Below the pieces are notes generated by a model, which was not told the origin of the DNA, ran no database searches, and saw only the letters and a program-made list of their open reading frames with translations. Positions 9,725-44,090 of a DNA stretch of 64,000 bases are shown piece by piece. Source of the DNA: Opitutales bacterium (GTDB lineage: Bacteria; Verrucomicrobiota; Verrucomicrobiia; Opitutales; JABSRG01); contig JANQKZ010000045.1 of assembly GCA_028280845.1 (NCBI GenBank), positions 1 to 64,000 of the forward strand, read 5' to 3'. Within the stretch, counting starts at the first letter, position 1; the number at the start of each line of letters is the position of its first letter. A program made the position numbers and the translations under genes.

Positions 9725-9756
9725 CTATTCACCACGGAGATCACAGAGAACACAAA
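9725..9756 (-). repeat. Solo arm of the CACGGAG/CACAGAG intergenic repeat
   Basis: The short motif TTCACCACGGAGATCACAG, followed by AGAACACAAAG, lies between rmlB and rmlA. It is one arm of the inverted repeat family found complete at 13706-13800, 14752-14834 and 15891-16050. Only one arm is recognisable here. Confidence 0.65.
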
Positions 9757-9794
9757 GTAATTTTCCTGAATTCATGCCTTCCTTAGAGAAGGAT

Positions 9795-13705: not shown

Positions 13706-13800
13706 GTTCACCAAGGAGACCACAGAGAATTAACGTTAGCTATCACATCGAAATGATTTGAACAGGGCTCCGTGGTCTCAGTGTCCTCTGTGGTGAAATA
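13706..13800. repeat. Intergenic inverted repeat, complete copy
   Basis: The left arm (13706-13730, GTTCACCAAGGAGACCACAG) and the right arm (13765-13799, containing CTCCGTGGTCTCAGTGTCC then CTCTGTGGTGAA) are imperfect reverse complements separated by about 35 bases. It fills the space between the epimerase and the GDP-fucose synthase genes. It belongs to the same family as 14752-14834 and 15891-16050. Confidence 0.8.
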
Positions 13801-14751: not shown

Positions 14752-14834
14752 TTACCACGGAGGACACAGAGAACACAGAGAAAACTTATAAAAATCACAC
14801 CCTCAGTGGTCTCTGTGTCCTCCGTGGTGAAAAA
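14752..14834. repeat. Intergenic inverted repeat, complete copy
   Basis: The left arm at 14752-14784 (ACCACGGAGGACACAGAG, then AACACAGAG) and the right arm at 14801-14834 (CTCTGTGTCCTCCGTGGTG) are near-perfect reverse complements around a 16-base AT-rich centre. It occupies the whole space between fcl and the next epimerase. This is the cleanest copy of the family. Confidence 0.85.
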
Positions 14835-15890: not shown

Positions 15891-16050
15891 CCATTTCACC
15901 ACAGAGCCCACAGAGAGCACAGAGAAAACTGAAAAAAGTTGAGGAAGCCTGTGGGCAGCCCAAGGCTTTTACAACCAGCCGAAACCACCACTCAGCTAAA
16001 GTCGTTTATCGTCACTATCTCTGTGTCCTCCGTGTGCTCTGTGGTGCAAA
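15891..16050. repeat. Intergenic inverted repeat with wide spacer
   Basis: The left arm lies at 15891-15930 (TTTCACCACAGAGCCCACAG, then AGAGCACAGAGAAAAC). The right arm lies at 16015-16050 (CTCTGTGTCCTCCGTGTGC, then TCTGTGGTGC). They are inverted, with about 85 bases between them. The right arm forms the last codons of the GT2 gene that ends at 16015. Confidence 0.75.
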
Positions 16051-41180: not shown

Positions 41181-41252
41181 TTCTACCACAGAGATCACGG
41201 AGACCTGGAAGATCCTTTCCTCGATACCCTTGCCTCCCCTTCTCTGTGACCT
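41181..41252. repeat. Degenerate intergenic inverted repeat
   Basis: The left arm TTCTACCACAGAGATCACGG (41181-41200) is a clear family member. The right arm is reduced to CTTCTCTGTGACCTC near 41239-41252. It lies between the TolC-like gene and the HlyD-like gene and overlaps the upstream end of the latter's open frame. Confidence 0.5.
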
Positions 41253-41284
41253 CAAGCGAAGCGGGTGATGAATTCGATTTTTTT

Positions 41285-42406
41285 ATGAAGTGGCTGATAC
41301 GCAGCATTTTAGTCTTAGTCTTAGCAGGTGGAATCTATTTCCTGATCGCTCCCAATCTGGCGACCGAGGTGGTGGTCAGCCAGAGCAAACGCGGGACCGC
41401 CATCAATGCGGTTCCTGGGAATGTGGAGGTTTATACCGGGCTCACCACCTCCATTCGGTGCGAGGTAAACGGCAGAGTTCAGGAGGTGATCAAGCCCCCA
41501 AATTCTGAGGCCAGACAGATCAAGAAAGGTACTCCCATCGTCATTCTCGATACGACGGAGATCGATAACACCATCGCTATTGTGGAAGCAGACCTGAAAG
41601 AGGGCCAACGATTACTGGCCCAGGAATCGCAATATGTCCCCATCATTGAAGGCATCCGTGATGAGTTGCAGGACCAGGAAGAATTATTGGCCGCAGGTCG
41701 CATCGCGGAAGCGGACGTGGACCGAACCCGCCAAAATCTCAGACGGCATGAGAATCTCCTAAATTCCGAACGCATTCGCTTGGAACGCCTCGTCGAGCGA
41801 AACCAGGCCCTCCTCAATACACATCTTTTAAATCGAGAAAAGCACACCATTACCGCAACTGTTGATGGCACCCTCGATGCCACCTTCGTCTTTGTGGGGG
41901 ATTACATTCGGGTCAATCACCGCGTGGCCGAAATCGCATCCAATTCTATGCGAGTCATCGTCGATGTGAGTGAGGAAGATCTCGACGGGTTGAAAAAGGA
42001 GCAACCCGTCACCGTGCGCCTCCTGGCTTACGGGAATCAACTTTTCCAGGGCACGGTATCCTGGCTAGCCTTCAAAGCAGACCCGAACACAAAACGACGA
42101 AGTATACGCGTAAACCTGGATATCCCCCGCGATATGCTGGTCGCCGGCCTGACGGGTCAGGCCACCATTGTAAAAGGAGAACGGGAAAACGCCATCCTCG
42201 TCCCCCGGAGGGCCCTGGTGGGGCGTAATCTCATGGTGGTGAGGGATGGCCGGGTCGAAGTCCGTGAAGTGACCATCGGCTACCTGGGTATCGGACAGGC
42301 CGAAATCCTCGAAGGCCTCGAAAATGATGAACTCGTGATCGTGGAAACCCCACACATCTACGAAGACGGTCAACGGGTGAAAGTGGATCAAGTTGTACCC
42401 TTCTGA
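41285..42406 (+). CDS. HlyD/RND-type periplasmic adaptor (membrane fusion protein)
   Basis: 373 residues from ATG 41285. One N-terminal membrane segment (KWLIRSILVLVLAGGIYFLI) anchors it in the inner membrane. Lipoyl-like halves (VEVYTGLTTSIRCEVNGRVQ and ITATVDGTLDATFVFVGDYI) surround a long helical hairpin (about 95-180). A beta-barrel with VTVRLLAYGNQLFQGTVSWL and the membrane-proximal VPRRALVGRNLMVVRDGRVE segment follow. It links the FtsX-type permease to the TolC-like channel. The frame's earlier GTG at 41246 lies in repeat sequence and was rejected. Confidence 0.88.
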   Translation: MKWLIRSILVLVLAGGIYFLIAPNLATEVVVSQSKRGTAINAVPGNVEVYTGLTTSIRCEVNGRVQEVIKPPNSEARQIKKGTPIVILDTTEIDNTIAIVEADLKEGQRLLAQESQYVPIIEGIRDELQDQEELLAAGRIAEADVDRTRQNLRRHENLLNSERIRLERLVERNQALLNTHLLNREKHTITATVDGTLDATFVFVGDYIRVNHRVAEIASNSMRVIVDVSEEDLDGLKKEQPVTVRLLAYGNQLFQGTVSWLAFKADPNTKRRSIRVNLDIPRDMLVAGLTGQATIVKGERENAILVPRRALVGRNLMVVRDGRVEVREVTIGYLGIGQAEILEGLENDELVIVETPHIYEDGQRVKVDQVVPF

Positions 42407-42410
42407 TTTC

Positions 42411-42843
42411 ATTCACCACGGAGATCACAGAGGACACAGAGTGGACATCAATTTGTTAACAGAGAAAGTGATTGGATGTGCAATTACTGTTCACAAGGAA
42501 CTCGGCCCAGGCTTGCTTGAATCCACTTATGAATCATGCCTTGCATATGAATTGGAACACTCTGAATTAGAATTTTCCCGCCAGATACCCCTTCCCATTC
42601 AGTATAAAAGCATTCAAATCGACTGTTCTTACCGGCTAGACCTTGTGGTCGAAAATTCCCTGCTTCTTGAATTAAAAAGCGTTGAGAAATTAGAAAGAAT
42701 TCACGAAGCCCAGATTCTGACTTATCTGAAACTAGGTGGGTTTTTTACTGGCCTCCTCATAAACTTTAACGTCCCGCTCCTCAAAGATGGCATTAAGCGC
42801 TTTAAAATGTAACTCCGTGTCCTCTGCGCCCTCCGTGGCGAAC
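42411..42843 (+). mobile_element. Candidate cassette: GxxExxY gene framed by inverted repeat arms
   Basis: The left arm at 42411-42441 (ATTCACCACGGAGATCACAG, then AGGACACAGAGTGG) and the right arm at 42813-42843 (CTCCGTGTCCTCTGCGCCC, then TCCGTGGCGAAC) are imperfect reverse complements of each other and of the repeats at 13-16 kb. The only gene between them is the GxxExxY gene; its GTG start lies in the end of the left arm and its stop abuts the right arm. The unit interrupts an efflux operon between the adaptor and the permease genes. The mobility claim is inference. Confidence 0.5.
42441..42812 (+). CDS. GxxExxY family protein
   Basis: 123 residues, with the signature GPGLLESTYESCLAYEL that names the family (G-x-x-E-x-x-Y). 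RLDLVVENSLLLELKSVEKL has the D-x(n)-E-x-K arrangement of PD-(D/E)XK nuclease-like folds, and IHEAQILTYLKLGGFFTGLL and the NFNVPLLKDGIKRF end are typical. The family's biochemical function is not established as far as I know. It is unrelated to the efflux genes around it. The GTG start at 42441 lies inside the left inverted-repeat arm, so the frame's apparent N-terminal 16 residues from TTG 42393 are repeat-encoded and were rejected. Confidence 0.85.
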   Translation: MDINLLTEKVIGCAITVHKELGPGLLESTYESCLAYELEHSELEFSRQIPLPIQYKSIQIDCSYRLDLVVENSLLLELKSVEKLERIHEAQILTYLKLGGFFTGLLINFNVPLLKDGIKRFKM

Positions 42844-42848
42844 ATAAA

Positions 42849-44090
42849 ATGAAAACCAACCTGGAGATTGCCTGGCGCTTCATAACGTCGAGGAAACGCG
42901 CCATGGCCATGACGCTGTGCGGAGTAATCTTCGGTGTCGGCTTCTTCATCATCACCCAGGCGCAGACCTCCGGCTTTGAGCGCTTCTTTATCCAGACAAT
43001 TCTGGGGACCAATGGGGCCATCCGGATCACCGACCGATTTCAGGACACGATGCTCAGCATGGAAGCCCTATCGCAATCGGGCTCGACCTTTCGTATCAAG
43101 ACCGAGGGCATTGAGCGGGAAAAAGGCATCACCTACCCCGATACCGTCATTCCCATCGTCAAACAGTACCCGGAGGTTATTGGGGTTTCCGAAATCCTCG
43201 ACCGGCGAACCGATGTCTCCAGCCGTTCCAACGAAGAAACCGGACGCATCTTCGGCATCCGTCTGGCGGACCACCTGACTGTCTCCAACCTGGGCGACCA
43301 GATCACTTTGGGGAGCATTCAGGATTTTGAGGCCGATTCGAGTACGGTTATCCTCGGAGGCAAGCTGGCTTTCCGGCTCAATGTTACGGTGGGCGACTTT
43401 ATCAACGTAGACGGAAAGAATGAGACCCGCCGCTACCGTGTAGCTGGAATTTTTGAATCCGGGGTAGACATCATCGACCGCGAGCGGGTCTACATGCAGC
43501 TCTCCGAATCGCGCTCTCTCATGGAGATTCCCTTTGGGGAAACTATTCTGCAGGTCGCCATTCGTAGCCCGGAAAAAGCCCCGGACCTGGCTATCCAAAT
43601 GTCCAACGAGCTGCAACACATTGTGCAAAGTTGGCAGGAACGGGAAAAGGTCTGGCTCGATGTCTTTATGGCTCTACGATATTCGGCTGCCCTCACCGTT
43701 TCGACCATCATCCTGCTGGCGGGCATCGGTATGTTCAATACCCTTGCCATGATGGTAATCGAAAAGACCCGGGAGATCGCCATCCTCCGCTCTATGGGCT
43801 ACACCCAGCAGGATATCACCCAGATTTTCGTCTTCCAGGGGATCATCATCATGATTGCCGGTATCCTGCTCGGCTGGGCCTTTGGAGCACTCGCCACCTT
43901 CGGGGTATCTAAAATCCCTCTCCGCATCCGCGGAATATTCCGCACCGACTCCTTCGTTGTGAATTGGGACTGGAATCACTACCTGGCCGCTGGGGCTGTG
44001 GCCGTCATCGTCGTCTTCATCGCCAGCCTCATTCCGGCCCGCCGCGCCGCCGAAGTGGAACCGGCCACCATCATCCGAGGCAGCAGCTAG
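42849..44090 (+). CDS. ABC transporter permease (FtsX/MacB/DevC-like)
   Basis: 413 residues. The N-terminal membrane segment is near 19-38. A large periplasmic domain (about 45-275) contains PEVIGVSEILDRRTDVSSRS. Three C-terminal membrane segments follow: TVSTIILLAGIGMFNTLAMM, IFVFQGIIIMIAGILLGWAF and YLAAGAVAVIVVFIASLIPA. The coupling motif EKTREIAILRSMGYTQQDI and the closing RRAAEVEPATIIRG are diagnostic of FtsX-like permeases in MacB, LolC and DevC systems. These extrude lipids, lipoproteins or glycolipids to the TolC channel. Its ATPase is encoded just downstream. Confidence 0.9.
   Translation: MKTNLEIAWRFITSRKRAMAMTLCGVIFGVGFFIITQAQTSGFERFFIQTILGTNGAIRITDRFQDTMLSMEALSQSGSTFRIKTEGIEREKGITYPDTVIPIVKQYPEVIGVSEILDRRTDVSSRSNEETGRIFGIRLADHLTVSNLGDQITLGSIQDFEADSSTVILGGKLAFRLNVTVGDFINVDGKNETRRYRVAGIFESGVDIIDRERVYMQLSESRSLMEIPFGETILQVAIRSPEKAPDLAIQMSNELQHIVQSWQEREKVWLDVFMALRYSAALTVSTIILLAGIGMFNTLAMMVIEKTREIAILRSMGYTQQDITQIFVFQGIIIMIAGILLGWAFGALATFGVSKIPLRIRGIFRTDSFVVNWDWNHYLAAGAVAVIVVFIASLIPARRAAEVEPATIIRGSS

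Follow-up and report, generated by a model that had tools for sequence, protein, structure and literature searches.

The closest described counterparts of the locus reported here are the REP/REPIN hairpins and their RAYT transposases, in which the gene is flanked by inverted palindromic repeats, the class of the repeat is coupled to the clade of the protein, and dispersed empty doublet hairpins occur in an abundance that follows the presence of the gene (PMC2817692, PMC3116915). Another relevant element is the intervening sequence (IVS) of the Coxiella 23S rRNA, which is 428 nt long, contains one ORF and is regarded as selfish (PMC4990558). Here we describe a cassette of comparable compactness whose only gene encodes a GxxExxY protein. 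In the open-access literature that we searched, TIGR04256/PF13366 appears only as a name, with no mention of the arm sequences, and the arms, cassette structure and hairpin relatives are undescribed, although an earlier account elsewhere is possible.

The window, that is, the whole stretch of 64,000 nt of an Opitutales bacterium that was analysed (contig JANQKZ010000045.1, assembly GCA_028280845.1), carries this cassette between the adaptor and permease genes of an efflux operon (Table 1). As claimed in the original prediction, the GxxExxY gene is framed exactly by inverted arms. Each arm measures 31 nt and consists of TTCRCC plus three tandem 7-nt CRCNGAG cores at 9-nt spacing, and the repeat search found the two arms to be 84% complementary, with 369 nt between them. 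The codons also lie where they had been placed, the start in the left arm and the stop abutting the right one: the GTG at 42441 begins within the left arm and shares its final bases, and the TAA (42810-42812) reaches into the right arm by one base. According to the ORF list, GxxExxY is the only credible ORF of the cassette, and no DDE or HUH transposase was found in the unit.

Table 1. Positions of the cassette, its neighbours, the hairpins of the window and elements of other genomes named in the text.
Feature	Position	Strand	Description
Single arm	9731..9757	+	3 cores, partner absent
Empty hairpin between nucleotide-sugar genes	13707..13797	.	
Empty hairpin	14754..14828	.	arms 27 nt, 93% complementary
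Empty hairpin	15894..16049	.	arms 32 nt, 84% complementary
Degenerate empty hairpin, gap before adaptor	41185..41255	.	same grammar; ACCACAGAGATCACGGAG ... CTTCTCTGTGACCT, by eye
Efflux adaptor gene, 5' of cassette	41246..42406	+	
Whole cassette	42412..42842	.	431 bp, arm to arm
Left arm	42412..42442	+	TTCACC, then 3 tandem 7-nt cores CACGGAG-AT-CACAGAG-GA-CACAGAG
GxxExxY gene	42441..42812	+	TIGR04256 / PF13366 PDDEXK_3; GTG start, TAA stop
Right arm, inverted	42812..42842	-	minus-strand reading CACGGAG-GG-CGCAGAG-GA-CACGGAG
Permease gene, 3' of cassette	42849..44090	+	
MITE-borne hairpin copies	G038 L174-L193; G093 L306-L311; G128 L314-L317		
Four-helix-bundle element, leuB-like/alaS gap	L264, G048:C89:21189-21506		
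Bacteroidota pair of units	L089:2766-3415 / L105:2766-3415		650 bp, GxxExxY gene and upstream hairpin

Adaptor and permease genes were predicted to be normally adjacent and to have been split by the cassette, and the relatives agree with this. Homologues of the adaptor occur in 77 of the 177 genomes of the order, and in all relatives inspected (29/29) the distance from adaptor to permease is -11 to 122 nt, with a median of 14 nt, versus 442 nt in the window genome. The operon without the cassette, comparison with which had been proposed at the outset, thus exists in these relatives as a short gap devoid of hairpins. Once positions 42412-42842 are removed, 11 nt are left between the adaptor stop and the permease start, and the inserted unit is therefore bounded by the arms. 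Together, the widened gap and this short remainder identify the cassette as a lineage-specific insertion into the efflux operon. Moreover, the GC content of the gene is 0.41, versus 0.54 and 0.56 in its neighbours, and the best named relative of its product comes from a betaproteobacterial MAG (66% identity), above the best relative within the order (at most 59%, among the relatives aligned in the first alignment). Low GC and this order of relatives suggest that the gene arrived horizontally.

The window protein matches the profiles TIGR04256 (149.6 bits, E 4e-44, cut-off 35) and PF13366 PDDEXK_3 (145.7 bits, E 1e-42, cut-off 22), and alignments of relatives show conservation of E27, D67, E77-x-K79 and Q91-xxx-Y95. 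Its structure was predicted with a pLDDT of 97; the solved folds closest to the model are Cas4 (Z 9.6), followed by the Hjc resolvase and restriction enzymes, while a sequence search retrieved no solved homologue. The nuclease-like D-x(n)-E-x-K pattern of the original prediction is borne out by the conserved D67 and E77-x-K79 and by the PD-(D/E)XK fold of the model, from which the protein is a predicted nuclease with fold and motif intact. In most measurable GxxExxY pairs dN/dS was 0.05-0.12, and in one divergent pair 0.52, which indicates purifying selection on the protein; hence, a working enzyme would matter to the element. No relative of the window protein was found in the phage collection, nor among the viral contigs scanned with this single protein, and 7 of 72,556 plasmid records contained a match.

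Within the window, the motif CACNGAGNNCACNGAG, when up to two mismatches are allowed, has 23 matches, whereas 100 shuffles averaged 2.9 and never exceeded 9; of its strict copies, 17 genome-wide, 14 lie in the window. The repeat of the cassette had been said to occur also as empty hairpins, and three of these are real (13707-13797, 14754-14828 and 15894-16049). At the degenerate hairpin before the adaptor, recognised by eye, the repeat search reported no pair. The hairpins occupy several gaps of the nucleotide-sugar operon and the gap 5' of the adaptor gene, and the empty ones have arms in common and unrelated loops. Since arms are shared and loops are not, the hairpins are not deletion copies of one element. 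The proposal of a full-length element with MITE-like solo relatives is supported in part: the cassette runs from arm to arm, and empty hairpins of its grammar go with the gene (see below). We also noted that positions 18000-40000 have a low GC content (0.40 vs 0.51) and lie between two hairpin-bearing regions, all window hairpins being outside this segment, on either side of it.

Framing by arms extends well beyond this locus. A profile search gave eight GxxExxY matches in the window genome, some of them decayed, and the other genes are flanked by inverted arms of different sequence and the same plan. The same CACGGAG/CACAGAG arms, which were to be looked for around other GxxExxY genes according to the original prediction, are therefore not universal. 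Within the order, 30 of 34 GxxExxY loci exceed the 95th percentile of cross-locus arm pairings. Among 77 loci of named genomes, 51 passed the arm threshold, versus 6 of 540 shifted positions within the same loci, which served as controls. Most of these homologues are framed; about one third of the 77 loci have no clear arms in this test. The set covers Pseudomonadota, Acidobacteriota, Bacteroidota, Ignavibacteriota, Planctomycetota, Verrucomicrobiota, Chloroflexota, Cyanobacteriota, Omnitrophota, Spirochaetota, Nitrospinota and Hydrogenedentota, plus Methanosarcinales archaea. Inverted arms thus frame GxxExxY genes in at least 12 phyla, among them archaea.

These arms are not a single repeat but follow a variable grammar: a 7-nt core (CRCNRAG and variants) recurs in tandem about three times, mostly at intervals of 8-10 nt, and the arms read (TTA)AC-CRCNRAK-NN-... 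Within G-type arms, which are the most frequent class, the left and right arm match in 98-99% of cases at fixed core positions, in 73% at core position 4 and in 57% in the spacers, versus 34% expected for the spacers. From these agreements, the cores are conserved more strongly than pairing requires, with pairing partly kept. Mismatches between arms, read on the gene strand, show no excess of G-U wobble (135 vs 144, p 0.63), and this lack of bias speaks for a function of the arms at the DNA level.

Several loci showed arms or arrays of other kinds. Two sister species share a site that holds a near-identical GLREKTYE-type element (L046, G048:C55; L204, G032:C11), with long arms, TGACTTGGA, that lack the CRCNRAK grammar. 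The GLSEEIYQ-type genes L201, L203 and L205 of G032 have CGCTTAA arms, with more copies of the repeat arrayed in their flanks. In Colwellia, Pseudoalteromonas and Psychromonas (L088, L108 and L061), several hairpins form a tandem array that adjoins the GxxExxY gene and resembles BIME/REPIN clusters. Furthermore, genes for four-helix-bundle proteins (TIGR02436; L134-L163) lie inside inverted arms at 16 of 26 loci, versus none of 104 shifted controls; their arms consist of tandem 7-8-nt repeats of other grammars (GGCTGTG, AGTGGCT, AATGATG, GAACATC).

The type of arm follows the type of protein. Arm cores end in G around genes for GPGLLES-type proteins, in A around those of the FKNGFLEKVYE type, and in T around those of the LKPGLDEKLYE and HEK(I/P)YE types, and further clades have other cores; the arm threshold of this survey had settings different from those of the 77-locus controls, and the figures of the two are not comparable. 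When a three-state arm label was placed on the tree of GxxExxY proteins of one order, 5 changes were needed, versus 13-23 in 500 shuffles, which indicates that arm type tracks protein subfamily. Different arm types occur together in one genome, and thus arm type belongs to the element rather than to its host. The coupling could nevertheless reflect mere linkage of arms and gene, not recognition.

Empty hairpins of the arm grammar go with the GxxExxY gene. With a strict paired-arm pattern, hairpins were found in 44 of the 177 genomes, and a reversed-pattern control gave 0 matches in all genomes. The gene is present in 40 of these 44 genomes versus 33 of the 133 others, and, among genomes of at least 3 Mb, in 33/33 versus 26/36 (p=0.001). 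The relation between repeat and gene drawn in the original prediction thus stands for the 40 carriers but not for the four hairpin-bearing genomes from which the gene is absent. G-type hairpins go with G-type genes (p 0.00015) and not with T-type genes, and T-type hairpins had no specific association with T-type genes (p 0.15). A type-specific association in general was accordingly rejected, as it holds for the G-type only.

To follow individual sites, congeners were searched for the sequences that flank elements of G031, G032 and G038, and at four sites the element was absent there. In the gap between leuB-like and alaS, G032 has a T-type GxxExxY element, whereas its sister G048 has a four-helix-bundle element whose arms are very unlike those of G032 (L264); in another gap G048 carries just a small hairpin, built on a further repeat. 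One hairpin, intact in G020, is represented in G038 by its left arm with a GxxExxY element after it, and the target sites of L206 and L207 have neither element nor hairpin in G020. The gatB/gatA gap holds elements in five genomes (L026, L029, L031, L231 and L200) and the leuB-like/alaS gap in three (L202, L126 and L264); their occupants belong, depending on the genome, to different GxxExxY subfamilies or are four-helix-bundle elements, and both gaps are apparent hot spots. Element sites are, therefore, polymorphic and reused.

Target duplications, for which a search had been recommended together with the prediction, were not found above chance at 105 loci, where the longest direct repeat averaged 3.59, versus 3.49 in shuffled pairs. 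In G038, G093 and G128, near-identical copies of hairpins lie centrally in three families of larger MITEs with ends of their own. The MITE of G038 is about 140 nt long, with ends CTAGAGCATTTTAA..TTTAAACTGCCCTAG; these outer ends were not found at the GxxExxY loci of G038. Multi-copy identical hairpins were for this reason rejected as proof of mobility driven by GxxExxY. In the Bacteroidota pair L089 and L105, the units are 87% identical within unrelated flanks and have outer ends CTACTC..GAGTAG and 9-10-nt direct repeats, which suggests that this unit was moved by another transposase.

As the simplest reading of these data, we infer that the arm units are read by the nuclease that they frame, and that this enzyme favours spread to intergenic sites or replacement there. 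The lone gene would supply a small PD-(D/E)XK nuclease, and each end would be an arm of 7-nt recognition units in tandem, paired with the arm at the other end. The protein would bind these units, probably as a dimer or oligomer, and would cut or resolve DNA at the arms, whether this is duplex, a cruciform that has been extruded or a hairpin of single-stranded DNA. The element may then settle in intergenic gaps or replace resident hairpins, as may, in trans, hairpins that consist of arms only, spreading by a RAYT/REPIN-like or homing-like route without target duplication. We lean, with some reserve, towards the cassette being such a compact selfish, or once selfish, element, a PD-(D/E)XK nuclease together with the paired arms that it reads.

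Were gene and arms instead passengers, carried along by recombination or other transposons while the nuclease does other work, such as defence or the control of hairpins as binding sites, it would be understandable that larger MITEs of three genomes have hairpins of the grammar in their middle and that the L089/L105 unit has outer TIR-like ends and direct repeats. We consider this rather unlikely, given that the window locus is bounded by the arms with 11 nt left over, that the ends of the G038 MITE are missing from the GxxExxY loci of that genome, that the 105 loci show no excess of target duplications, and that arm type follows protein subfamily. Homing only, in which the nuclease would cut existing hairpins at orthologous gaps and the cassette would be copied in by recombination, with no transposition to new sites, strikes us as quite improbable: the L206 and L207 targets have no hairpin in the congener G020, and the relatives of the window operon have short, hairpin-free gaps. 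It would nevertheless account for the reuse of the gatB/gatA and leuB-like/alaS gaps by different subfamilies, for the G038 element placed after the left arm of a hairpin whole in G020, and for the missing target duplications.

A function at the RNA level, with the arms forming an RNA stem as in 23S rRNA intervening sequences or in attenuators and terminators, and with a protein that acts on RNA or is incidental, seems very improbable to us. Placement in operon gaps, and the occurrence in similar frames of four-helix-bundle genes, which are related to the IVS protein, are in its favour, but arm mismatches have no G-U-compatible excess, core positions are kept beyond pairing need, and the protein has the fold of PD-(D/E)XK DNA nucleases. 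Finally, that an ordinary gene is flanked by accidental repeats is scarcely credible; nothing beyond the loci without clear arms agrees with it, and motif shuffles, cross-locus pairings, shifted positions, the reversed-pattern control (0) and tree shuffles all speak against it. This static reading is refuted by the multi-phylum arm test (51/77 vs 6/540).

The arm framing of GxxExxY genes suggests a class of tiny mobile elements that has so far gone undescribed. A broader and more tentative proposal, to which we give somewhat less than even chances, is that GxxExxY cassettes constitute a new class of mobile element of bacteria and archaea, in which a lone PD-(D/E)XK nuclease with subfamily-specific units mobilises itself and empty hairpins and needs neither a transposase nor a target duplication, the four-helix-bundle cassettes with their other arm grammars being a parallel branch. 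If the reading as a nuclease-bearing selfish element is true, a widespread family without a settled function would gain a testable role, and the intergenic hairpins common in environmental genomes (CACAGAG..., CGCAAAG... and CACGGAT... arms) would have one explanation. Mobility driven by a PD-(D/E)XK nuclease on its own would add a new mechanism to those of the DDE, HUH, serine and tyrosine enzymes. The coupling of arms and protein predicts that each subfamily binds its own arm type.

Like MITEs and insertion sequences, GxxExxY elements have inverted ends, an intergenic position and empty relatives; they differ in having no detected target duplication and no DDE or HUH transposase, and, unlike for MITEs, near-identical non-autonomous copies are not seen in the window, where hairpin loops are unrelated. 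The window cassette shares with the 23S rRNA IVS and its S23/four-helix-bundle ORF a length of about 430 bp and one small ORF, but it lies between efflux genes, its ORF is of the PDDEXK_3 family, and it gives no RNA-pairing signal. Homing endonuclease elements are marked by sites that are occupied, empty or replaced among relatives and by insertion where the enzyme cleaves; for GxxExxY elements, reuse and replacement of sites were observed. RAYT/REPIN is the best analogy, with an unrelated enzyme: here, too, the gene is flanked by inverted repeats that recur as empty hairpins, arm class is coupled to protein clade (5 changes vs at least 13 in 500 shuffles), hairpin abundance follows the gene at least overall (type-specifically for the G-type only), and hairpin clusters adjoin the gene in the Colwellia, Pseudoalteromonas and Psychromonas loci. 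However, RAYT is a Y1 HUH tyrosine transposase and the GxxExxY protein a predicted PD-(D/E)XK (PDDEXK_3) enzyme; REP is a palindrome tagged with GT(A/G)G, and the GxxExxY arm repeats a 7-nt CRCNRAK core about three times in tandem; and GxxExxY cassettes occur in many phyla, archaea included, often with several subfamilies per genome and a low copy number of hairpins.
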